Shown here: in pieces, positions 40,984 through 50,017 of the stretch
Numbering within the stretch: position 1 is the first letter of the stretch
Layout of the letters: each line of letters starts with the position of its first letter
Assembly (NCBI GenBank): GCA_016787725.1
Contig: JAEUTZ010000004.1
Coordinates: forward strand, 339,259 to 403,258
DNA from: Cyclobacteriaceae bacterium
Lineage (GTDB): Bacteria > Bacteroidota > Bacteroidia > Cytophagales > Cyclobacteriaceae
Direction: 5' to 3'
DNA length: 64,000 nt
The notes under the pieces: model-generated
Seen by the model: the letters and a program-made list of their open reading frames with translations, nothing else
What the model was told of the DNA's origin: nothing
Databases searched by the model: none
Made by a program: the position numbers and the translations under genes

Positions 40984-42132
40984 CTACAGCATTCCCACGA
41001 TGTCCATGATTGCATCCGGCACAGCGGAACCGCTAAAGAAAATTCCTACACACAATACTTTTTCGTAGTAATTGGATTTACGGATACTGAGAGGCAATGC
41101 ACTCACGGACAGGGCAGCAAATGCAACAGAAAAAATCAATACGCTGATGACAACAAGGATTGAATTTTGAAGAAATACGATAAGCGCCATGGAGACCAGG
41201 GTGATGGCAAAGCTTATCCAAAATGAAGACATTAATCCATACCGACTTACAAGTTGACTGGTAGGCCATGAAACCATCGCGGCCAGCAACAGCACTCCCG
41301 CGATTAAAAGATTTTCATTTGCACCAGACCAATACGATGCAATTTTCTCATTCAGTATTCCTGGAAGTATATTAAACAAGACTGCAGTCGCGAGCCCTAC
41401 CGACAGCCCCATAAAGAATATGAAGCGATACTCCGAGCGCTGCGTGTCTAACTTAAAGGTAGCCATCGAGTGTTTCGTATCAGTTTTTCCCTGCATGAAA
41501 AGGCCCATCGAGTTTTTTCGTAATGCGTATCCCGAACCGAATACCACTACACCGCCTGTTACAAAAGTCAGAGAAGCACCCAGGTAATCAATGATATCTA
41601 CGATAATGGGTTCCATGGCGTATAGCAGGTTGGCCACAATAGTTAATATAGCCATGGCAATGGGTAGTTTCTCCACAGGGGTAAATAACTCCACGGTGGA
41701 AAGGGCCGGACTGGTAAATATGCTCATCGCAATTAGCCAGAGGATGATCAGGATGGGCAAAACCCATTCGAAGATCTCGCCCGGATTGGCAACCAACGTG
41801 AATGCCACGGCCATGAAGATCATGGCTGCAAAACTAATTCCCGATGAGATGATGGGTAGTCGATGGCCATTCCTGAACCTGTATCGGTCGCCAAGTCGGC
41901 CGGCAATCAGCGGTGTGACCACCAGGATGATGGCCTGGGCAACCACCAGTAGAAAACTGAAGTCGGTAAAACTAAACTGAACCAGAAGTTTGGGTTGGTA
42001 TCGGTAATAGGCAATCCAGCCTATGATAATGCTCCCGTACAGCGAGGTGAGGCTGAGCAACTGCTTCCATTCAATGGATTCTGGTCTGCGTTCGAGTGTT
42101 TCGGCAGAGCCTTTATCAAGGGTCACTTCCAT
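40984..42132 (-). CDS. major facilitator superfamily transporter
   Basis: A 382-residue inner-membrane transporter with about 11-12 hydrophobic helices. The loop after the second helix pair carries the MFS motif A-like segment AGRLGDRYRFRNGHRLP. A hydrophilic central loop (GKTDTKHSMATFKLDTQRSEYRF) separates the two halves. The sequence lacks drug-efflux or sugar-specific signatures that I recognise, so the substrate is unknown. The first 24 residues are cytoplasmic and charged. Confidence 0.8.
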   Translation of the reverse strand: MEVTLDKGSAETLERRPESIEWKQLLSLTSLYGSIIIGWIAYYRYQPKLLVQFSFTDFSFLLVVAQAIILVVTPLIAGRLGDRYRFRNGHRLPIISSGISFAAMIFMAVAFTLVANPGEIFEWVLPILIILWLIAMSIFTSPALSTVELFTPVEKLPIAMAILTIVANLLYAMEPIIVDIIDYLGASLTFVTGGVVVFGSGYALRKNSMGLFMQGKTDTKHSMATFKLDTQRSEYRFIFFMGLSVGLATAVLFNILPGILNEKIASYWSGANENLLIAGVLLLAAMVSWPTSQLVSRYGLMSSFWISFAITLVSMALIVFLQNSILVVISVLIFSVAFAALSVSALPLSIRKSNYYEKVLCVGIFFSGSAVPDAIMDIVGML

Positions 42133-42647
42133 GATTAACTTTGTTGTTGTTGATTACCTACGAGAAAGAAGGTGTTCTTGGATTTTAGCGGGGCGGAATT
42201 CTTTAAGTTTAGTATCCGTTGGCGCTCATATTCCCATGGCTGTGGATTGCCGATAGCGAAGACCCAGTTCATAGATTTTCTTGAAGCATGTTTCTCAAAG
42301 TCTGACAACCTGACAATGCTTGCTCCTTATACAAATGGAAGTGATGCGTCCCGAGTTACATCCGTGATAATCCGGGTCGACTTAATGTTTGTGGAGATAA
42401 ACAGGCCGGGAGTTATTGGTTTTCGGCTATTGCCTTCGCTGCCCAAATGAGAAGGAATACGTACTCATAGCCCAAAGCAATACCGGTTGAACGGAGCTAT
42501 AAAAAGGGCTTACGGAGAGGATTAAGCAGAAGGGTCTCTTTTTAACTGCATAGGGATTGTGCAGGCTTTGCGGTCTGGCATACTAAAGAAAGGGTCAGTA
42601 ACTGGATTCTGTTAAATATGCACGATAGCACACATTTATAATCACAA
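42133..42647. other. intergenic region without a recognisable gene
   Basis: 515 bases between the MFS gene start and the anti-sigma stop. A 92-codon plus-strand frame (42172-42450) and a minus-strand frame interrupted by one stop are both open here. Neither shows a domain, signal peptide or believable start context. The MFS promoter should lie in the first 150 bases. Confidence 0.35.
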
Positions 42648-43445
42648 TCACCCCACAACTTCACCAATCACCTGCATGGTCTCCAGTGTTGGAGAGGTAC
42701 GACCGCCACGAGGTTCAATGGTGACAGCGAAAGCTGAAGCTCCCCTTATTGTTTTCATCGCCAGAAGGCCGTTCGTTCCGCTTACATCAAATACTCCCGC
42801 ATCTACAGGTTTTCCATCTACAATGGCCCATAGTTGATACTGATTTTCTCTGGCAAGAGATTTAAGGTTTCGAATACTAAGATACACTTCTTGCGTTTCA
42901 GCATTCCAAAAAACGGAGGCCATCGCATCAGGTGCAGCGGCCGTGCCTTTCAATACAATTCGTTCAAAGGAGGGGTCGTTGCTAATCTGCAGGTCCGATT
43001 CTATTTTTTCAAGACGATTATGCACATTGTTGTAATCCCGGGCGATTTGCTGATTCTGGGCAATCAACTCAGATAGGTTTTCCTCTGATGCCAGCCACCT
43101 GCCCCGGTAATCAAAAGCAAAGTAGCTTGCAACCATGGCCAGCACCACCGATGCAGCCACCGCGTATTTCCACCGAATGGTCTTTCCATTGTCTGGTAGC
43201 GGCAATGCGCGCACCGTGCCGGTACTTTCAATAGTTTTGAAAAGTTTTGCCTTACCTGACACTGGAGGTTGGATAGCTGCCTTCATCAACAACTCTTCCT
43301 GCGTTTCTTCTATTCGCTTCAATTCCTCACGCAACGCAGGATATTTTAGCAAGTGTTCGTTAACCTCTGCCATTTCCTGCGGAGAGAGTTCGCCTAAAGC
43401 ATACGCTTCCAAAACTCCTGACGATATGTATTCCTCAATATTCAA
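42648..43445 (-). CDS. RskA-type anti-sigma factor
   Basis: A 265-residue membrane anti-sigma factor. An N-terminal cytoplasmic anti-sigma domain (residues 1-85; VLEAYALGELSPQEMAEVNEHL) binds the sigma factor. One membrane helix lies at about 92-110, followed by a short coiled stretch. The periplasmic anti-sigma-K domain spans about 165-265 (NQYQLWAIVDGKPVDAGVF and RGGRTSPTLETMQVIGEV). It starts with a TTG whose last bases overlap the sigma-factor stop (TTGA), implying translational coupling. It should hold the sigma factor inactive until an envelope signal triggers proteolysis. Confidence 0.9.
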   Translation of the reverse strand: MNIEEYISSGVLEAYALGELSPQEMAEVNEHLLKYPALREELKRIEETQEELLMKAAIQPPVSGKAKLFKTIESTGTVRALPLPDNGKTIRWKYAVAASVVLAMVASYFAFDYRGRWLASEENLSELIAQNQQIARDYNNVHNRLEKIESDLQISNDPSFERIVLKGTAAAPDAMASVFWNAETQEVYLSIRNLKSLARENQYQLWAIVDGKPVDAGVFDVSGTNGLLAMKTIRGASAFAVTIEPRGGRTSPTLETMQVIGEVVG

Positions 43446-43975
43446 ACTACTTTGATTAATGATCTCAATTCTTTCATGGCCAGGCGAAGTCTTGTCTTTA
43501 CTGTACCCAAGGGTATGTTAAACTCTTCGGCAAGTTCGGATTGCGAATAGCCTTTGAAGTACAGATACTCCACCACAAATTTCTGCTCTGCCGACAAATC
43601 GTTCAATATTTCTGCTACGCCAATAGATTCAGTTTTTTGTTCAACAAATGTTGCCGAATCTGTGCTATCTACGAAATTGTCGAGGTCTTTGGATTTACGT
43701 TCGTTCATTAGTTCTTTCGAACGGGTTTTATCAATAGCCTGATTACGGGCAATGCGCAACATCCAGGTAAACAATCTTCCTTTATTCGGATCATAATCGT
43801 GCATTCTGTCCCATATCCGAAGAAACACGTCCTGCAAAACTTCTTCGGATGCCGATTCCGTACGCACAATCCGGTTGATTACGCCATAAATCGCCCCCGA
43901 GTAATGATCGTACAGATACTCTAATGCCCTTCGGTCCCTGGACTTCAGTCTGCTAACCAATTCGTTTTCACTCAT
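43442..43975 (-). CDS. ECF RNA polymerase sigma factor (SigK-like)
   Basis: A 177-residue group 4 sigma factor. Region 2 contains RALEYLYDHYSGAIYGVINRI and EEVLQDVFLRIWDRMHDYDP; region 4 contains LSAEQKFVVEYLYFKGYSQSELAEEFNIPLGTVKTRL (residues about 125-160, landmark only). The true start is the ATG at 43975 (MSENELVSRLK); the longer open frame upstream is the complement of the divergent DUF4331 gene. Pairing with an RskA-type anti-sigma identifies it as SigK/ECF19-like. It has no cysteines, unlike mycobacterial SigK with its redox disulphide. It likely drives the adjacent DUF4331 and fasciclin promoters. Confidence 0.9.
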   Translation of the reverse strand: MSENELVSRLKSRDRRALEYLYDHYSGAIYGVINRIVRTESASEEVLQDVFLRIWDRMHDYDPNKGRLFTWMLRIARNQAIDKTRSKELMNERKSKDLDNFVDSTDSATFVEQKTESIGVAEILNDLSAEQKFVVEYLYFKGYSQSELAEEFNIPLGTVKTRLRLAMKELRSLIKVV

Positions 43976-44058: not shown

Positions 44059-44083
44059 ATCCAATGTGTGGCTGCACTTCGTA
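44059..44083 (+). promoter_or_regulatory. candidate ECF (SigK-like) promoter of the DUF4331 operon
   Basis: ATCCAAT (44059-44065), 13 bases, then TCGTA (44079-44083). The same two boxes at the same spacing precede the fasciclin gene. Read as GATCC-N16-TCGTA, it parallels the mycobacterial SigK consensus CCATCC-N16/17-CCGAAT. The DUF4331 ATG lies 31 bases downstream. Confidence 0.6.
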
Positions 44084-44114
44084 AGTGGAAAGTATAACCA
44101 TTAAATAACTGATA

Positions 44115-44786
44115 ATGAAACTTACAAGAAAAACTAAAACCTTGGGTGCAGCGCTACTGGTACTTCTGGCTTCCGGAATGTATCTGATCGCTGCTGACCA
44201 TATTGATGCACCCGGAGTAACCGGAGCTGGCAGCGCCAGCCTGGGTTCCGACATTACGGACGTGTATGCTTTTGCCAACGGCAATAACATGGTGTTCGTA
44301 GTAAACACACAAGGGCTGTTAAGTCCCGCAGCCTCTGGATCGGCCGCTTTCGATGAAGAAGTTATGCTGGAAATCAATATTGATAACGGCAGCACGAAGG
44401 ACAATATCGAAGATCTGGTCATTCAGGCGACCTTCGAAAACGGGAAAGTTCGCGTGTATGGACCTGCCGCCCCGGTCACTACAGGGTTGAACAGCACTTT
44501 GCTCAACAGCGTAACTGTGGAAGCCAATATTACTCCTTATGGTCAATCACCGGTAATCGGTGAGCAAAATGGCATCAAGGTGTTTGCCGGTCCGCGTGAT
44601 GATCCATTCTTTTTTGACCTCGGTGCATACAAGGCCGTTTTAGGTGGAACAGCGAGCAGCTTTAATAATCCTGGCACCGATACGTTTGCAGGCACCAATG
44701 TAATGGCGCTGGTAATCGAAGTGCCAAAATCACAATTAGGCTCGGGTACTATTAATATCTGGGCAACATCAAACCGTAAAATGTAA
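44115..44786 (+). CDS. DUF4331-family secreted protein
   Basis: A 223-residue exported protein. The signal peptide (residues 1-27) ends in LIAADHIDAPGV, and ADHIDAP is the N-terminal hallmark of DUF4331, followed by ITDVYAFANGNNMVFVVNT. Strands such as DEEVMLEINIDNG and KVFAGPRDDPFFFDLGAYKAVL match the central part of the family. The chain is about half the length of a full DUF4331 protein; the next gene appears to carry the C-terminal part. DUF4331 has no established biochemical function. First gene of a five-gene block divergent from the sigma/anti-sigma pair. Confidence 0.88.
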   Translation: MKLTRKTKTLGAALLVLLASGMYLIAADHIDAPGVTGAGSASLGSDITDVYAFANGNNMVFVVNTQGLLSPAASGSAAFDEEVMLEINIDNGSTKDNIEDLVIQATFENGKVRVYGPAAPVTTGLNSTLLNSVTVEANITPYGQSPVIGEQNGIKVFAGPRDDPFFFDLGAYKAVLGGTASSFNNPGTDTFAGTNVMALVIEVPKSQLGSGTINIWATSNRKM

Positions 44787-44807
44787 ATCATCCAAAAGAA
44801 TAAGACA

Positions 44808-45329
44808 ATGAATACGATAACAAAATACCTAATGGCCATTGCAGTCAGTGGAATGATATTCACTGCATGCGATGATGACGATACAAAACCTGTCGTCATG
44901 TACGAACAGGAAGATCAAATGGGGAGGCCCGCGATCAACACCGTGTTTGTAACCAGTGGCGAAAAAAATACATTCAACGCTACAATTCCCTCTGCGCAAG
45001 GTGCGGCCTTTGCATCCAAGTTTAATACCCAATTGCTTGCACTTAATCCGGGCTATACCACCAATCTGCTTGGCCTTAATGCGGCAACATTTACCAGCGT
45101 GCTGGCAACGGATGTACTGTCTGTAGCACTCACCGGTGTCACTACTTTCTTCGATGGCACCAATGTGCTGACAGGAAGGACGTTGGCTGATGACGTGATC
45201 ACGGTTGAGTTGATCCTGATTTTTGGCGGTCCCGATGCCATGGCAAACCCAGGCTTGACGGACGATCACGTGGATGCTAACGATAAAGCGTTCTTAACTT
45301 CATTTCCGTACCTGGCGGCACCTCATTAA
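44808..45329 (+). CDS. DUF4331-like lipoprotein (C-terminal half type)
   Basis: A 173-residue lipoprotein: signal and lipobox FTAC at residue 20, then an Asp-rich linker. The rest resembles the C-terminal part of DUF4331: EDQMGRPAINTVFVTSGEKNTFNATIP (residues about 35-60, landmark) and DDVITVELILIFGG near the end, followed by DHVDANDKAFLTSFPYLA. It starts 21 bases after the preceding gene. Together the two products seem to reconstitute one long DUF4331 protein, one half lipid-anchored and the other soluble or anchored separately. Confidence 0.75.
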   Translation: MNTITKYLMAIAVSGMIFTACDDDDTKPVVMYEQEDQMGRPAINTVFVTSGEKNTFNATIPSAQGAAFASKFNTQLLALNPGYTTNLLGLNAATFTSVLATDVLSVALTGVTTFFDGTNVLTGRTLADDVITVELILIFGGPDAMANPGLTDDHVDANDKAFLTSFPYLAAPH

Positions 45330-45410
45330 TATTTTAGTCGAGTTTGTGGGTTGGTTAGAGTGGTGATTGGCCTGAAAGGGCCTTTCACCTTCTTTAAAAT
45401 CTTTTGCAAA

Positions 45411-46730
45411 ATGAAAAGTATAAATAAAATAAAAAGTTCTACTCCTCATTGGGTCGCGTTTTTGTTCGTATTGATGCTGACAGGAGCTTGTTCGAATCAA
45501 AAACAGCCCATTGTAAATCCGGCAGACTACAGCACTTATCTTGAGAGTTTGCCCATGCCTGAATATGATATAGATGTGGATATAAAATTTTGGCATGAAC
45601 GGCTCACCAAAATGCCGAACGATTATGCCTCCCAGGTTAAGCTGGCAGGACTGCACAGTGCCCTGTTTAGGCGAACGGGCGATGTTAGGCAAATCCACTA
45701 TTCGGACAGTATTTATTTGAGTTTACTAGAATCGCCCTCAACGGATAAAGCCAAAATCCATTTGGCGCTTGCGCAGAACGCAATTACACAGCACCAGTTT
45801 AAAAAAGCCTGGTCATTTACTCAAGCAGCATTGGATGAGGGTGAATTGAAGCCGGCTTCATTGATGGTGATGGTGGATGTAAAGCTGGAATTGGGCGACT
45901 TGCAAGGCGCTAAAAATATACTCAGACAGTTTACTAACAAAAATTCATTTGCGCATCGGATCAGGCAGGTAAAGGTTAAAGACCAACAGGGAGAGTTGGA
46001 CTCTGCCATATATATAATGGAGCAGGCTTTCGATCGGGTGAAAGGAAATAAGGATTTGTTTTGCTGGTCATTATCAAATCTTGGCGATATGTACGGGCAT
46101 GCGGGAAGAATTGAAGATGCGTATCGCGCTTACCTGAATGTATTAAAAAAAGAACCCAATTATGACTACGCGCTAAAGGGAATAGCCTGGATCGCCCTCT
46201 CGCATGATAAAAATCTAAATGAAGCAAAGCGCATTATTGCCGCGCTGGCAGCGCGCAGCCGCATGCCCGAAGCACACCTGATGTTGACGGAAATTGCCGA
46301 ACTTGAAAATGACAAACATGAAAAATCAAATCAACTTGCTGCATTCGTGCGCATGACTGATACACCGACCTACCATACGATGTATGCCAAATACCTCGCG
46401 AACATTTTCGCTGAAGATCTGAACCAACCTGAAAAGAGTCTTGCCATCGCTGAATCTGAGATTGCGAACAGACCCACCCCTCAATCATATGACCTGAAAG
46501 CCTGGGCGCTGCTGCATTTGGGCAGGGAAAAGGAGGCGCTCGTTATCGCGCAAAATCATGTGGTTGAAAAAACATTCGAACCGGAGGCAGCCTACCATCT
46601 TGGAATGATTTACAAAGCAAACGGTTTTGAGAAAGAGGCTGAAAAATACCTTGAGCACGCCCTGGAAAGTTCCTTCGAACTGGGGCCATCGGTAACACAT
46701 GATATTCAGAAGGCCTTGAAAACAAGGTAA
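45411..46730 (+). CDS. tetratricopeptide-repeat lipoprotein
   Basis: A 439-residue protein with a lipoprotein signal (LTGAC, about residue 29) and about eight to nine TPR-like helical pairs over residues 90-430 (for example GDMYGHAGRIEDAYRAYLNVLKKEP and YHLGMIYKANGFEKEAEKYLEHAL, landmarks). It should sit on the periplasmic face as an interaction scaffold. The upstream in-frame ATG at 45351 would break the signal peptide, so 45411 is chosen. Its position between the DUF4331 pair and the TonB receptor suggests a role in the same envelope system. Confidence 0.8.
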   Translation: MKSINKIKSSTPHWVAFLFVLMLTGACSNQKQPIVNPADYSTYLESLPMPEYDIDVDIKFWHERLTKMPNDYASQVKLAGLHSALFRRTGDVRQIHYSDSIYLSLLESPSTDKAKIHLALAQNAITQHQFKKAWSFTQAALDEGELKPASLMVMVDVKLELGDLQGAKNILRQFTNKNSFAHRIRQVKVKDQQGELDSAIYIMEQAFDRVKGNKDLFCWSLSNLGDMYGHAGRIEDAYRAYLNVLKKEPNYDYALKGIAWIALSHDKNLNEAKRIIAALAARSRMPEAHLMLTEIAELENDKHEKSNQLAAFVRMTDTPTYHTMYAKYLANIFAEDLNQPEKSLAIAESEIANRPTPQSYDLKAWALLHLGREKEALVIAQNHVVEKTFEPEAAYHLGMIYKANGFEKEAEKYLEHALESSFELGPSVTHDIQKALKTR

Positions 46731-46734
46731 CATT

Positions 46735-47085
46735 TTGAAATCGCTCATAACCAAAATACTTTTTCTTGTTTATGGTCTTTCCATAAGCGGGTATGTATTG
46801 TTGGATGGCGGCCATGAAATACTTCACATACTTAAAGGGAGCGTGCATCAGCATGGCACAAATCACAACCATCATCATCACTGGGAAGATCATGAAGATA
46901 TTTTTGCTCCCGATGAAGGCAGCGACCACGCCCGTGGCACGGTTGAGATTTCTTGTTTTTTTCTGTTCTACCAAGCCCCTCAGTCTTATTCTTTTGATGC
47001 ACGCGTTTCAAGCACACATCCGTTGACAGCGGCAAAAATAGAACCGCAAACCCAAACTCCACGCACACCGCCACCCCTGGTTTGA
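46735..47085 (+). CDS. small His-rich secreted or membrane protein
   Basis: A 116-residue protein starting at TTG four bases after the TPR stop. A hydrophobic segment (residues 5-24) is followed by GGHEILHILKGSVHQHG and a run of four His within NHNHHHHWEDHED. Ten or more His and several Asp/Glu over about 25 residues make metal binding (Zn, Ni, Co or Cu) likely. The C-terminal part is Pro/Thr-rich and there is a second hydrophobic patch near residue 75. No family is recognised. It precedes the TonB receptor by 73 bases. Confidence 0.6.
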   Translation: MKSLITKILFLVYGLSISGYVLLDGGHEILHILKGSVHQHGTNHNHHHHWEDHEDIFAPDEGSDHARGTVEISCFFLFYQAPQSYSFDARVSSTHPLTAAKIEPQTQTPRTPPPLV

Positions 47086-47158
47086 TCACTCCGATCTGCG
47101 GTTCATTTGCCGCTAACATTCATTCTATTTTAGATTTTACATCATTCAATTGTTCTTC

Positions 47159-49390
47159 ATGAAAAAGATCGTATATGGTATTTTATTGTCATCATCGTCC
47201 GTATTTGCACAAGGCACGCTCAAAGGCATTGTGAAGGAGGAGGGTTCCAGGCAACCCCTTGTGGGTGCCCACATCGCCATCAAGGACTCTAACCAGGGAG
47301 CTATCACCAATCGTGACGGTCAGTTTACCATTCCGTCAATCAATTCCGGAAAGTATCTGGTTGAAATTTCTTTTGTTGGATACTACATGCAAACGCTCCC
47401 TGTTGAAATCGGAGAAGGAGTAAGCTCGTTGCCCGAAGTACTTTTAACGCCTGGCAATATTCAATTGGCCGATGTGGTCATTACCAGCGGTACAGATCGG
47501 CCGCTCAATACCCTTTCCCCCGTAGATATCAACTTGCGCCCCACCAACACCTCACAGGACATTTTGAGAATGGTGCCAGGGCTGTTTATTGCCCAACATG
47601 CCGGTGGCGGAAAAGCTGAACAGATATTCCTTAGGGGTTTTGATATCGATCATGGCACTGACATCAACCTGGAGGTGGATGGATTGCCCGTAAATATGGT
47701 CTCACATGCCCACGGGCAAGGATATTCCGACCTCCATTTTCTTATACCTGAATTGGTTCAATATGTGGATTTTGACAAGGGCCCCTATTTTGCTAATAAG
47801 GGAGACTTTACAACTGCCGGTTATGTGGATTTTCAAACGAAAACCTCCCTCGAAGGCAATTTTGTCAAAGTCGAAGGGGCCCAATTCGGTACGTTGCGGA
47901 CAGTAGCAGGCGTTAATTTAGTTTCCAGGAATGCAACGAAGAACACCGGCTACATTGCTTCAGAGTACTTTCGCTCAGACGGATTCTTTGAAAGCCCGCA
48001 GCACTTTAATCGCTTCAACCTTGCCGGAAAGTATACCATTGACCTTGGAAAATCCCATTACGTCAACCTGGGAAGCACCTATTTCAGAAGCAGTTGGGAT
48101 GCATCCGGGCAGATCCCTGAAAGAGCCGTGCGAAACGGAACCATTACCCGGTTCGGCTCAATTGATGATACAGAAGGAGGTCAAACCAGCAGAGCCAATT
48201 TTTTTATCAAGCACAGATTTCAATTCGGCCGCGCCTCCTTTGATCAGCAAGCTTATGCCGTCTATTATGATTTTAATCTTTATTCAAACTTCACCTTTTT
48301 ACTGGCTGACCCCGTGAATGGCGATCAAATTCAGCAACAAGAAGCAAGGATGATCTATGGATATAAGGTCAACTATCACACGAATAGTACCGTGTTTGGC
48401 CGGGAGTTGAATACTCAATTTGGTGGAGGAGTTCGCTTCGATGACGTGCGCGAAATTTCTTTATCCAATACGCTCCGCAGGCAGTTCCTTGGGGATATTC
48501 AGCGCGGTGACCTCACGGAGGGCAACGCCAACATCTTTGTCAACGAAACCCTGGCGCTTAACAGACGGTGGTCGATAAATGCTGCCCTGCGATTCGACTA
48601 TTTTACTTTTGAGTATGACGATAAACTCACGGCACAACAAGGCAGCGAAACGGCCTCCATCGTTAGCCCAAAACTGAGCATTAATTACCAGGCGAGTGAA
48701 AACACATTGTTTTATATCCGCTCCGGAACAGGATTTCATTCTAATGATGCACGCGTTGTGGTAGAACGGAATGCAAAGGAAATTCTGCCACGGGCTTACG
48801 GAATCGATATCGGCATGCATACCAAGCTATGGGACAAACTGCTCCTTCATTCGGCTCTATGGCGTCTTGATCTCGACCAGGAGTTTGTATATGTGGGCGA
48901 TGCTGGCATTGTAGAGGCGAGCGGAAAAACACAACGGCAGGGCCTAGACCTGTCGGCCCGATACCAGGTACTTCCGTGGTTGTTTGCCGATGTGGATTTG
49001 ACACTGGCAGACCCTAAAGCGAAAGAAGCTTTGGAAGGAGAAAACTATATTCCATTGGCGCCCACATTTTCAAGTGTGGGTGGGCTTAGCGTTCGCAGTA
49101 ATACCGGTATAAACGGAAGTTTGCGCTACCGATGGCTGACTGACCGTGCCGCCAACGAAGCCAACATCGTGAAGGCCGATGGTTATTTTTTGATGGATGC
49201 GATGATTGCTTTTACCCAAAGAAAATTTGAGATCGCATTCTCTGTCGAAAATGTGCTGAACATGGATTGGAACGAGGCACAGTTCGACACCGAGTCAAGA
49301 CTGGCTGGCGAAACAGATCCTATTTCCGAAATTCACTTTACACCCGGTTCACCACGATTCACCAAACTAAAGGTTGCAATCTTTTTTTAA
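47159..49390 (+). CDS. TonB-dependent outer-membrane receptor (DUF4331-locus type)
   Basis: A 743-residue outer-membrane receptor. The signal peptide ends near residue 17 (SSVFAQ). A CarboxypepD_reg-like domain (about 20-105) comes first. The plug has a striking segment RGFDIDHGTDINLEVDG and NMVSHAHGQGYSDLHFLIPEL (about 155-200), a His-rich pattern characteristic of one receptor subfamily. The barrel ends in FTKLKVAIFF. The TTG three codons upstream is not needed. The adjacent His-rich protein and the plug histidines hint at metal or metal-complex uptake, but the substrate is unknown. Confidence 0.9.
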   Translation: MKKIVYGILLSSSSVFAQGTLKGIVKEEGSRQPLVGAHIAIKDSNQGAITNRDGQFTIPSINSGKYLVEISFVGYYMQTLPVEIGEGVSSLPEVLLTPGNIQLADVVITSGTDRPLNTLSPVDINLRPTNTSQDILRMVPGLFIAQHAGGGKAEQIFLRGFDIDHGTDINLEVDGLPVNMVSHAHGQGYSDLHFLIPELVQYVDFDKGPYFANKGDFTTAGYVDFQTKTSLEGNFVKVEGAQFGTLRTVAGVNLVSRNATKNTGYIASEYFRSDGFFESPQHFNRFNLAGKYTIDLGKSHYVNLGSTYFRSSWDASGQIPERAVRNGTITRFGSIDDTEGGQTSRANFFIKHRFQFGRASFDQQAYAVYYDFNLYSNFTFLLADPVNGDQIQQQEARMIYGYKVNYHTNSTVFGRELNTQFGGGVRFDDVREISLSNTLRRQFLGDIQRGDLTEGNANIFVNETLALNRRWSINAALRFDYFTFEYDDKLTAQQGSETASIVSPKLSINYQASENTLFYIRSGTGFHSNDARVVVERNAKEILPRAYGIDIGMHTKLWDKLLLHSALWRLDLDQEFVYVGDAGIVEASGKTQRQGLDLSARYQVLPWLFADVDLTLADPKAKEALEGENYIPLAPTFSSVGGLSVRSNTGINGSLRYRWLTDRAANEANIVKADGYFLMDAMIAFTQRKFEIAFSVENVLNMDWNEAQFDTESRLAGETDPISEIHFTPGSPRFTKLKVAIFF

Positions 49391-49404
49391 ATCAAGACGA
49401 AAAA

Positions 49405-49429
49405 ATCCAATCGTCCGTGATTTATCGTA
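49405..49429 (+). promoter_or_regulatory. candidate ECF (SigK-like) promoter of the fasciclin gene
   Basis: ATCCAAT (49405-49411), 13 bases, then TCGTA (49425-49429), identical in both boxes and spacing to the site at 44059-44083. The fasciclin ATG lies 48 bases downstream. Confidence 0.6.
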
Positions 49430-49477: not shown

Positions 49478-50017
49478 ATGAAAAAGACAATTATGTCTGT
49501 GTTGATGCTCGTAATAATCTGTAGCGCATTCGCACAAAAACCTGTTGAGGTAGGTGGCGCGCCTATGTATGCCAGCAAGAACATTATTGAGAATGCGATG
49601 AATTCTAAAGATCACACCACGTTGGTAGCAGCGGTGAAAGCTGCTGGTCTGGTGGAAACATTACAAAGCGCAGGACCGTTTACAGTGTTTGCGCCTACCA
49701 ATGCCGCTTTTGAAAAACTTCCGGCAGGAACGGTAGACAACCTGTTGAAGCCTGAGAACAAGAGCACTCTCACCGCGGTACTTACCTATCACGTGCTGGC
49801 TGGTAAATTTAGCGCTGCCGATGTGGCCAACGCGATTAAAGCAGGTAACGGTAAGGCGGAATTCAAAACCGTACAGGGCAACAAACTATGGGCGATGATG
49901 GACGGAAAAAAGGTGGTGCTTAAAGATGAAAAAGGCAACACATCAGTAATTACCATTATGGATGTGAACCAATCGAACGGAGTAATTCACGTGATTGATA
50001 CGGTAGTAATGCCGTAA
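49478..50017 (+). CDS. secreted fasciclin (FAS1) domain protein
   Basis: A 179-residue exported protein with a signal peptide (residues 1-19, ending AFAQ) and a single FAS1 domain at about 32-179. The H1 motif GPFTVFAPTNAAFEKLP is near residue 68, the YH motif in LTYHVLAGKF near 105, and H2 in GVIHVIDTVVMP at the end. FAS1 domains mediate adhesion or ligand binding. In mycobacteria, SigK controls the FAS1 proteins MPT70 and MPT83; here a FAS1 gene again shares a locus and an apparent promoter motif with a SigK/RskA pair. Confidence 0.93.
   Translation: MKKTIMSVLMLVIICSAFAQKPVEVGGAPMYASKNIIENAMNSKDHTTLVAAVKAAGLVETLQSAGPFTVFAPTNAAFEKLPAGTVDNLLKPENKSTLTAVLTYHVLAGKFSAADVANAIKAGNGKAEFKTVQGNKLWAMMDGKKVVLKDEKGNTSVITIMDVNQSNGVIHVIDTVVMP

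Follow-up and report, generated by a model that had tools for sequence, protein, structure and literature searches.

A 64,000-nt stretch of contig JAEUTZ010000004.1 from a Cyclobacteriaceae bacterium (hereafter, the window) contains a gene pair for an extracytoplasmic function (ECF) sigma factor and its RskA-type anti-sigma factor, and three neighboring units, namely an operon headed by two DUF4331 genes, a fasciclin (FAS1) gene, and a major facilitator superfamily (MFS) transporter gene, are each preceded by a two-box, promoter-like site. We consider it very probable that these three sites are promoters of the adjacent RskA-paired sigma factor. The comparison of genomes indicates that the conserved ECF promoter and its small regulon are real, and we infer, with strong support, that the sigma factor drives the sites. 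The first-pass annotation, made from the letters of the window, had linked the DUF4331 operon and the FAS1 gene to the sigma/RskA pair by a shared motif, and a conserved promoter-like element in relatives bears this link out.

Two exact copies of ATCCAAT-N13-TCGTA, and no others, are present on the plus strand of the window. One (44059..44083, followed by AGT) ends 31 nt before the ATG of the first DUF4331 gene (44115) and is conserved in relatives, and the other (49405..49429, followed by TGT) ends 48 nt before the FAS1 ATG (49478). Both positions and distances had been given correctly in the first-pass annotation, and no exact copy appeared in 100 dinucleotide-preserving shuffles of the window (mean 0.00, largest 0). 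The accompanying remark, made without an exhaustive scan, that no other copy at this spacing had been noticed in the window holds for the exact 12-base form, but it overlooked a third promoter-like site with one changed base, ATCCAAG-N13-TCGTA followed by GGT, on the minus strand (42159..42183), 26 nt before the MFS ATG, as well as a minus-strand copy inside the sigma gene (43670..43694), which lies in the sigma2-sigma4 linker 225 nt before rskA and is a possible internal promoter. All three promoter-like sites have a T three bases after CGTA (CGTA-NN-T), and the pattern RATCY-N17-CGTANNT occurs in the window at exactly four places, the three sites and the copy in the sigma gene. The DUF4331 site is formally within an open frame only because the sigma frame continues without a stop 5' of its ATG (43975); the alignments of six relatives begin at residues 1-3 of the protein read from this ATG.

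In the whole genome (4.2 Mb), the 12-base form has four exact copies, the two window sites and two inside open frames. Its shorter version, ATCCAA-N14-TCGTA, has eight exact copies, four of them in one 7.3-kb part of the window. Three of the eight, all in the window, stand before gene starts; the remaining five are inside open frames of at least 307 amino acids (aa), one being the sigma gene. With one mismatch allowed, this version matches 110 genome places, against 47 for the reversed pattern. The degenerate pattern RATCCR-N15-YCGTA is found at 29 places (4 for the reversed control), and only at the three window sites does a gene with an ATG start follow within 150 nt while no genuine gene covers the place. 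At one other place (L157), which falls within a 543 aa frame, an ATG follows at 115 nt, and three (L151, L168, and L169) are uncovered, with no gene behind them. The pattern RATCY-N17-CGTANNT has 28 places (control, 9), and beyond the window two of them precede a likely gene start (L338 and L336). A glutathione-peroxidase-like gene, named by eye, at the former was rejected as a conserved target, since the site was present in 1 of 30 ortholog loci, its own. At the latter, the site is about 50 nt before the gene of a 223 aa exported protein.

For the first DUF4331 gene, at least 474 relatives were found in named genomes, and the best 80 were taken, which belong to Cytophagales, Saprospiraceae, Chitinophagaceae, Flavobacteriaceae, and a few other groups. 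Seven further stretches brought the set to 87 loci, and 85 were retained after the removal of duplicates (L061, equal to L075, and L062, equal to L082). The loci were grouped by organism name, with a few named to phylum only assigned by likeness. The order of the two DUF4331 genes, the TPR gene, and the TonB receptor gene is collinear in 63 of the 85 loci, the sigma gene is present in 59 (in 57 together with RskA), and FAS1 is within the stretch in 11, all these counts being limited by some stretches that end at contig ends.

We searched the upstream regions of these loci de novo, leaving the first-pass motif unused, for all pairs of 4-mers separated by 8-20 nt within at most 250 nt upstream of the first gene, which is FAS1 where it stands directly before the first DUF4331 gene and the latter otherwise. 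The 25 Cytophagales and Saprospiraceae loci yielded 24 usable regions (one was absent or too short), and their top dyad, ATCC-N17-CGTA, is present in all 24, compared to a maximum of 6 in 10 block shuffles. The top dyad of the Chitinophagaceae-type loci is AATC-N17-CGTA (12/15, with ATCC-N16-CGTA in 8; maximum of 6 in 10 block shuffles), and that of the Flavobacteriales loci is AACC-N16-CGTA (42/45; maximum of 17 in 10 block shuffles), tied with the overlapping AAAA-N18-CGTA and AAAC-N17-CGTA. Hence, the spacer is one base shorter in the Flavobacteriales and Chitinophagaceae-type groups. In the site alignments, the boxes hold the information and spacer positions vary almost freely, though to a lesser degree in the set of closely related Flavobacterium. 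The alignments were anchored on CGTA, a box chosen by the open dyad discovery, and the T three bases after it, which was part of no search pattern, is invariant in 24/24, 42/42, 12/12, and 18/18 aligned sites.

Within these loci, the element is largely restricted to the cluster. Among genes outside the cluster in the same loci, the clade motif was found in 2 of 943 upstream regions (2/290, 0/173, and 0/480), and one of these matches belongs to a DUF4331 gene whose start was predicted too far upstream. The clade motif precedes 83 of 249 genes of the target classes, a large number of which are operon-internal, and 4 of 198 sigma, RskA, and second DUF4331 genes. A site before the sigma gene was observed in four Flavobacterium loci. 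Several units detached from the cluster keep a site of their own: the first DUF4331 gene with a TPR gene and TonB in Terrimonas (L080), with TonB (L077), or with a TPR gene (L134 and L145), and FAS1 with the first DUF4331 gene (L086 and L121). Identity of these separate TPR genes to that of the window is only 29-30%. The distance between site and predicted ATG varies from 3 to 149 nt and is mostly 25-50 nt. In two Roseivirga loci (L082 at 15341 and L084 at 15386, both plus strand), a site lies between the TonB and RskA genes, with no gene of at least 80 aa starting within 200 nt; perhaps it serves a small RNA or peptide.

The MFS transporter had escaped the first-pass annotation as a target. 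A sample of 148 genomes of the family contained orthologs in 39, and the site is present in 18 of 30 ortholog loci, own locus included (reversed pattern, 0/30). All these sites belong to the 24 loci whose genomes also encode the sigma factor (E <= 1e-30), and none was found in the six loci from genomes without it (Fisher p 0.0016, uncorrected for kinship). The gene itself is present in 32 of 39 sigma-bearing and 48 of 109 sigma-less genomes (p 3.5e-5, kinship again uncorrected), the MFS genes of the latter being on the whole more distant ones. In four genomes (G343, G382, G338, and G347; loci L276, L277, L278, and L279), an MFS gene is located beside the sigma gene or within about 3 kb of it, with a site in all but G382. 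The own genome has a second MFS paralog (C27, L207), 60% identical, for which a regular-expression search gave no site.

FAS1 genes with a site were also found beside the sigma/RskA pair, or within about 1 kb of it, in two genomes of the same genus (G064 and G173) and in G233 (L260, L261, and L263), where the DUF4331 search found none. A further genome of that genus (G144) has no first DUF4331, MFS, RskA, or sigma gene at the thresholds used. Altogether, 38 sigma/RskA neighborhoods were read, of which L257 and L259 lie on contigs already represented by L071 and L073. The genes behind sites in these neighborhoods encode CHRD proteins (L269 and L284), Tat-like Ferritin_2 proteins (L271 and L272), and, farther from the sigma pair, a DUF7282 protein (L280); L269, L271, and L280 were assigned by Pfam, and L272 and L284 by likeness. 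TonB receptors beside the sigma gene carry a site in L267 and L294, where a site before the sigma gene was also seen. Other neighborhoods, e.g., L262, L265, L270, L274, L282, L283, L291, and L293, have no site outside genes by the pattern used.

The same boxes are found beyond the phylum. Sigma relatives on plasmids constitute 228 records, and a Pantoea plasmid has the order FAS1-sigma-anti-sigma (RskA_C), whereas Novosphingobium (L311) has sigma-anti-sigma-FAS1, with an IS5 element between the sigma gene and the annotated anti-sigma gene. In Croceicoccus (Alphaproteobacteria), two DUF4331 genes, a hypothetical gene with a weak TPR match, HupE, sigma, and RskA_C stand in one row. The FAS1 genes of Pantoea (two records), Burkholderia, Mesorhizobium, and Novosphingobium and the DUF4331 gene of Croceicoccus each have ATCC-N16-CGTA 45-80 nt ahead of the ATG; the T after CGTA is present in 3 of the 6 proteobacterial sites. 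The Burkholderia and Mesorhizobium stretches contain no sigma pair. In total, 24 cross-phylum upstream regions were tested, and 9 of them gave some match, including a Shinella sigma gene of ECF11 type (TGATCC-N16-CGTA), a Streptomyces FAS1 gene (CGAA type, 200 nt away), and an Ensifer FAS1 gene (two weak matches, 91 and 179 nt away). No upstream match was found for the sigma genes of Pantoea, Novosphingobium, Microvirga, Phaeobacter, S. meliloti, and Croceicoccus, the msrP gene of Mesorhizobium, the FAS1 genes of Microvirga, Phaeobacter (two), S. meliloti HM006, R. leguminosarum, and Deinococcus, and the DUF4331 genes of Streptomyces and Nostoc. Streptomyces has the order DUF4331-TPR-nickel transporter-DUF4331-sortase-FAS1, with no sigma gene in that stretch.

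The sigma factor of the window (43442..43975, minus strand, 177 aa, ATG at 43975) is SigK/RpoE-like. SigK (NF007228) is its best NCBIfam model, with 141.9 bits, below the cut-off of 226, and a scan of the genome with this model gave 15 hits, of which the window protein is the top one (141.7 bits) and the next has 71.2 bits, none being above 226. Its scores in PDB are almost equal for SigK (4nqw, 84 bits) and Rhodobacter RpoE (2q1z, 81.6 bits). The partner gene (42648..43445, minus strand) encodes an RskA-type anti-sigma factor (Pfam RskA_C, E 5.1e-19; NCBIfam anti-sigma NF052375 above cut-off) with one hydrophobic, membrane segment by hydropathy (residues 93-113). Two sigma trees (32 and 31 rows) have three groups, comprising ECF11 RpoE/ChrR, SigK together with proteobacterial FAS1-linked sigma factors, and the Bacteroidota sigma factors; the clade of the latter has support of 99/95 and 99/97, with Thermomicrobium weakly near. 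In a tree with distant, long-branched outgroups, SigK and ECF11 join first (89/87) and the Bacteroidota sigma factors stand apart, so the trees do not place the Bacteroidota sigma factor within SigK. It probably works like SigK-RskA and RpoE-ChrR and represents a sister lineage of both, as suggested by its own clade in the trees and by boxes equal to the ECF11 consensus.

For SigK, oxidation of the pair C133/C183 matters (PMC7509140). The window protein has no cysteine, hence this pair is missing. Nineteen of 60 sigma orthologs are likewise devoid of cysteines (18 in the Cytophagales group and one in the Flavobacteriales group), and the other 41, all in the Flavobacteriales group (e.g., L088 and L097), have two or three, two of which are at shared positions. 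These align with SigK chain residues 158 and 193, not 150 and 200, by a numbering derived from a chain offset of 17, and could form another pair. With the cysteines missing or shifted relative to SigK, signal sensing probably differs. Among 96 distinct sigma genes (of 98), 10, including that of the window, have a copy of the site at this place in the linker, always with the T, whereas 200 protein-preserving codon shuffles gave a mean of 1.80 and a maximum of 6 (0.58 and 4 with the T). This excess is inflated by relatedness, and the residues encoded there are also similar. As a lead, the internal site may be the rskA promoter.

Two known systems are close to the one described here. As in SigK-RskA of Mycobacterium with its targets MPT83 and MPT70 (ECF18/ECF19), the sigma gene adjoins a gene for a membrane RskA_C anti-sigma factor, a FAS1 gene is a predicted target, the predicted regulon is small, and the -35 box contains ATCC. 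Mycobacterial SigK promoters have the form CCATCC-N16/17-CCGAAT, the likeness of which to the window motif had been pointed out in the first-pass annotation. The Bacteroidota system is unlike them in its -10 box, CGTA and not CCGAAT, in the separate clade of the sigma factor and its missing C133/C183 pair, and in predicted targets that include DUF4331, TPR, TonB, and MFS genes. That likeness gives way to a better fit of the boxes with the measured consensus of an ECF11 sigma factor, TGATCC-N16-CGTA (PMC5507510). The RpoE-ChrR system of this group, known for the singlet-oxygen response of Rhodobacter and Pseudomonas syringae, has the same boxes ATCC and CGTA (PMC5507510), with differences in the spacer (17 nt in Cytophagales and 16 nt in Chitinophagaceae-type loci) and in the AACC box of Flavobacteriales. 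Furthermore, ChrR is a cytoplasmic zinc anti-sigma factor (PMC6852236), whereas the anti-sigma factor here is RskA_C with one membrane segment.

The suggestion of a SigK-type sigma factor with a FAS1 link in Bacteroidota is therefore retained in part. Site-bearing FAS1 genes do stand beside a SigK-like sigma gene, also in L260, L261, and L263, while assignment to SigK proper does not follow, given the separate clade and the absence of C133/C183 from the window protein. Moreover, the FAS1-sigK-rskA cassette is already published for Gram-negatives: for mpt83-sigK-rskA, the SigK binding site is described as conserved even there, and RskA was tested in Yersinia (PMC7509140). Only 6% of Bacteroidetes ECF sigma factors have a class I anti-sigma domain nearby (PMC7406223). 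Our literature search, with most subscription journals outside it, found nothing mentioning DUF4331 or PF14224 and no account of the Bacteroidota branch, its promoter, or the DUF4331, TonB, and MFS targets.

A role in oxidative stress is possible, by analogy with FAS1 data of others and with msrB or msrPQ genes, which adjoin FAS1 in three plasmid records. Photo-oxidative stress induces a fasciclin gene of Rhodobacter, RSP_1409, with log2 values of 2.8 and 4.5 (PMC7074977), an Azospirillum fasciclin is under RpoE-ChrR (as cited in PMC10949492), FAS1 of M. kansasii is induced by light (PMC9861118), and an algal astaxanthin-binding FAS1 protein quenches singlet oxygen (PMC7477208). The fasciclin gene of an Icelandic phototroph speaks against such a role, as it showed no expression under the conditions examined (PMC10949492).

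Several observations weigh against the assignment of the sites to the adjacent sigma factor or reduce the weight of the evidence for it. The majority of the 29 RATCCR-N15-YCGTA places are intragenic, 6 of the 24 MFS loci in sigma-bearing genomes have no site, detached TonB (L131 and L139) and TPR (L130 and L139) genes have none by the pattern used, and relatives are non-independent samples. With up to three mismatches, the 12-base motif has 71 matches in the window versus 64.1 expected, and 20 of 100 shuffles reach 71. Since this is chance frequency, the case cannot rest on relaxed matches, and the proof is carried by the relatives. A chance origin of the look-alike strings is negligibly probable: it would fit the relaxed counts, but the shuffles contain no exact copy, the element is conserved across families, and the orthologous upstream regions rule it out. 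Binding of a transcription factor is also very improbable. A two-box element known from sequence alone could be bound by a regulator, but the boxes form neither an inverted nor a direct repeat, their orientation to the gene is fixed, boxes and spacer match the measured ECF11 consensus within 1 nt (PMC5507510), and the distances to predicted ATGs are those given above.

Somewhat less improbable, though still unlikely, is that a different ECF sigma factor uses the sites as its promoters and the sigma/RskA pair is a mere neighbor. The genome offers candidates among its 15 hits to the SigK model, the window protein included, ECF11 RpoE has identical boxes, and a CGT-type -10 box is common to other ECF sigma factors, e.g., that of the F. 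psychrophilum motif SM6. The latter is likewise a Bacteroidota ECF promoter with a CGT box, but it serves other targets, the genes of the type IX secretion system, and the available part of its description gives no ATCC or AACC -35 box and no FAS1 or DUF4331 target (PMC9723704). The scanned Cytophagales DUF4331 loci have no site before the sigma gene, i.e., no autoregulatory site, and the site-bearing FAS1 gene of Mesorhizobium stands beside DUF1365 and cfa, an ECF11-like set, in a stretch without an RskA pair. Against such a bystander role, the MFS sites track the presence of the sigma gene (18/24 versus 0/6 loci), as does the MFS gene itself (32/39 versus 48/109 genomes), and the sites are on neighbors of the sigma gene. 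The same boxes also precede FAS1 or DUF4331 beside an RskA_C-paired sigma gene in Pantoea and Croceicoccus and beside a sigma gene with an annotated anti-sigma gene in Novosphingobium.

If the adjacent sigma factor is the one that reads the sites, its RskA-type, membrane-anchored partner would hold it inactive until an extracytoplasmic signal frees it, for which oxidative or photo-oxidative stress is a guess. The holoenzyme would then recognize AATCC as the -35 box and CGTA, with NN-T after it, as the -10 box. ATCC and CGTA are 17 nt apart in Cytophagales, and the spacer is shorter by one nt in Flavobacteriales (with AACC) and Chitinophagaceae. In the window, it would switch on FAS1, the DUF4331-DUF4331-TPR-His-rich-TonB unit, and the MFS transporter.

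The predicted operon on the plus strand starts with DUF4331 gene part 1 (44115..44786, 223 aa, N-terminal hydrophobic segment; Pfam DUF4331, E 7.9e-23) and part 2 (44808..45329, 173 aa, lipoprotein-like N-terminus by eye; E 6.5e-15). The function of DUF4331 is not indicated by a PDB relative in sequence searches (sole hit, E 0.73) or by a fold search with an AlphaFold model (pLDDT, the predicted local distance difference test score, 79.1; no matches at E <= 0.001). The next genes encode a TPR protein (45411..46730, 439 aa, lipoprotein-like N-terminus by eye; Pfam TPR families), syntenic in relatives, and a small His-rich protein with an N-terminal hydrophobic segment (46735..47085), which matched no Pfam family and has similar small genes at its place in L063, L064, L068, L073, L081, and L083. 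On plasmids of Alphaproteobacteria, Streptomyces, and Nostoc (L305-L308), DUF4331 is accompanied by a HupE/UreJ, nickel transporter, or TauE gene, the two being separated by a TPR or hypothetical gene in three of the four loci; the window counterpart is the small His-rich protein after the TPR gene. The operon ends with a TonB-dependent outer membrane receptor (47159..49390; Pfam Plug and barrel domains), also syntenic in relatives, and the FAS1 protein with a signal peptide-like N-terminus follows (49478..50017, plus strand; Pfam Fasciclin, E 9.8e-34), which matches MPT70 (PDB 1nyo, E 8.9e-18). Among the best 40 of 205 records, the window FAS1 protein has up to 71% identity to a Pantoea plasmid FAS1 protein over 157 aa, compared to only about 34% between the window and Pantoea plasmid sigma factors, which suggests strong constraint or transfer. 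The MFS transporter (40984..42132, minus strand, 382 aa), a predicted regulon member with its own site, matched MFS_1 as the only Pfam family (E 9.3e-10) and had no PDB match at E <= 10 that would indicate its substrate.

A wider reading, which we regard as speculative and rather unlikely, is an old cross-phylum stress circuit, in which a sigma factor of an ATCC/CGTA superfamily with RskA would drive an exported toolkit against (photo-)oxidative damage of the envelope. Such a toolkit would comprise FAS1, split DUF4331, TPR, a HupE or His-rich protein, CHRD, Ferritin_2, DUF7282, and MFS proteins, with the TonB receptor in Bacteroidota, and in part of Cytophagales the promoter copy in the sigma linker would raise the anti-sigma factor and close a feedback loop. 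With the sites assigned as above, a Bacteroidota ECF sigma/anti-sigma pair gains a concrete predicted promoter and a testable regulon, and in two phyla the uncharacterized DUF4331 family becomes linked to a sigma factor of the stress type. One promoter type would connect the textbook systems SigK and RpoE/ChrR, and the function of bacterial FAS1 and DUF4331 proteins is directly testable in cultured Flavobacterium and Roseivirga. These results suggest that Bacteroidota have their own version of a circuit known mainly from mycobacteria.

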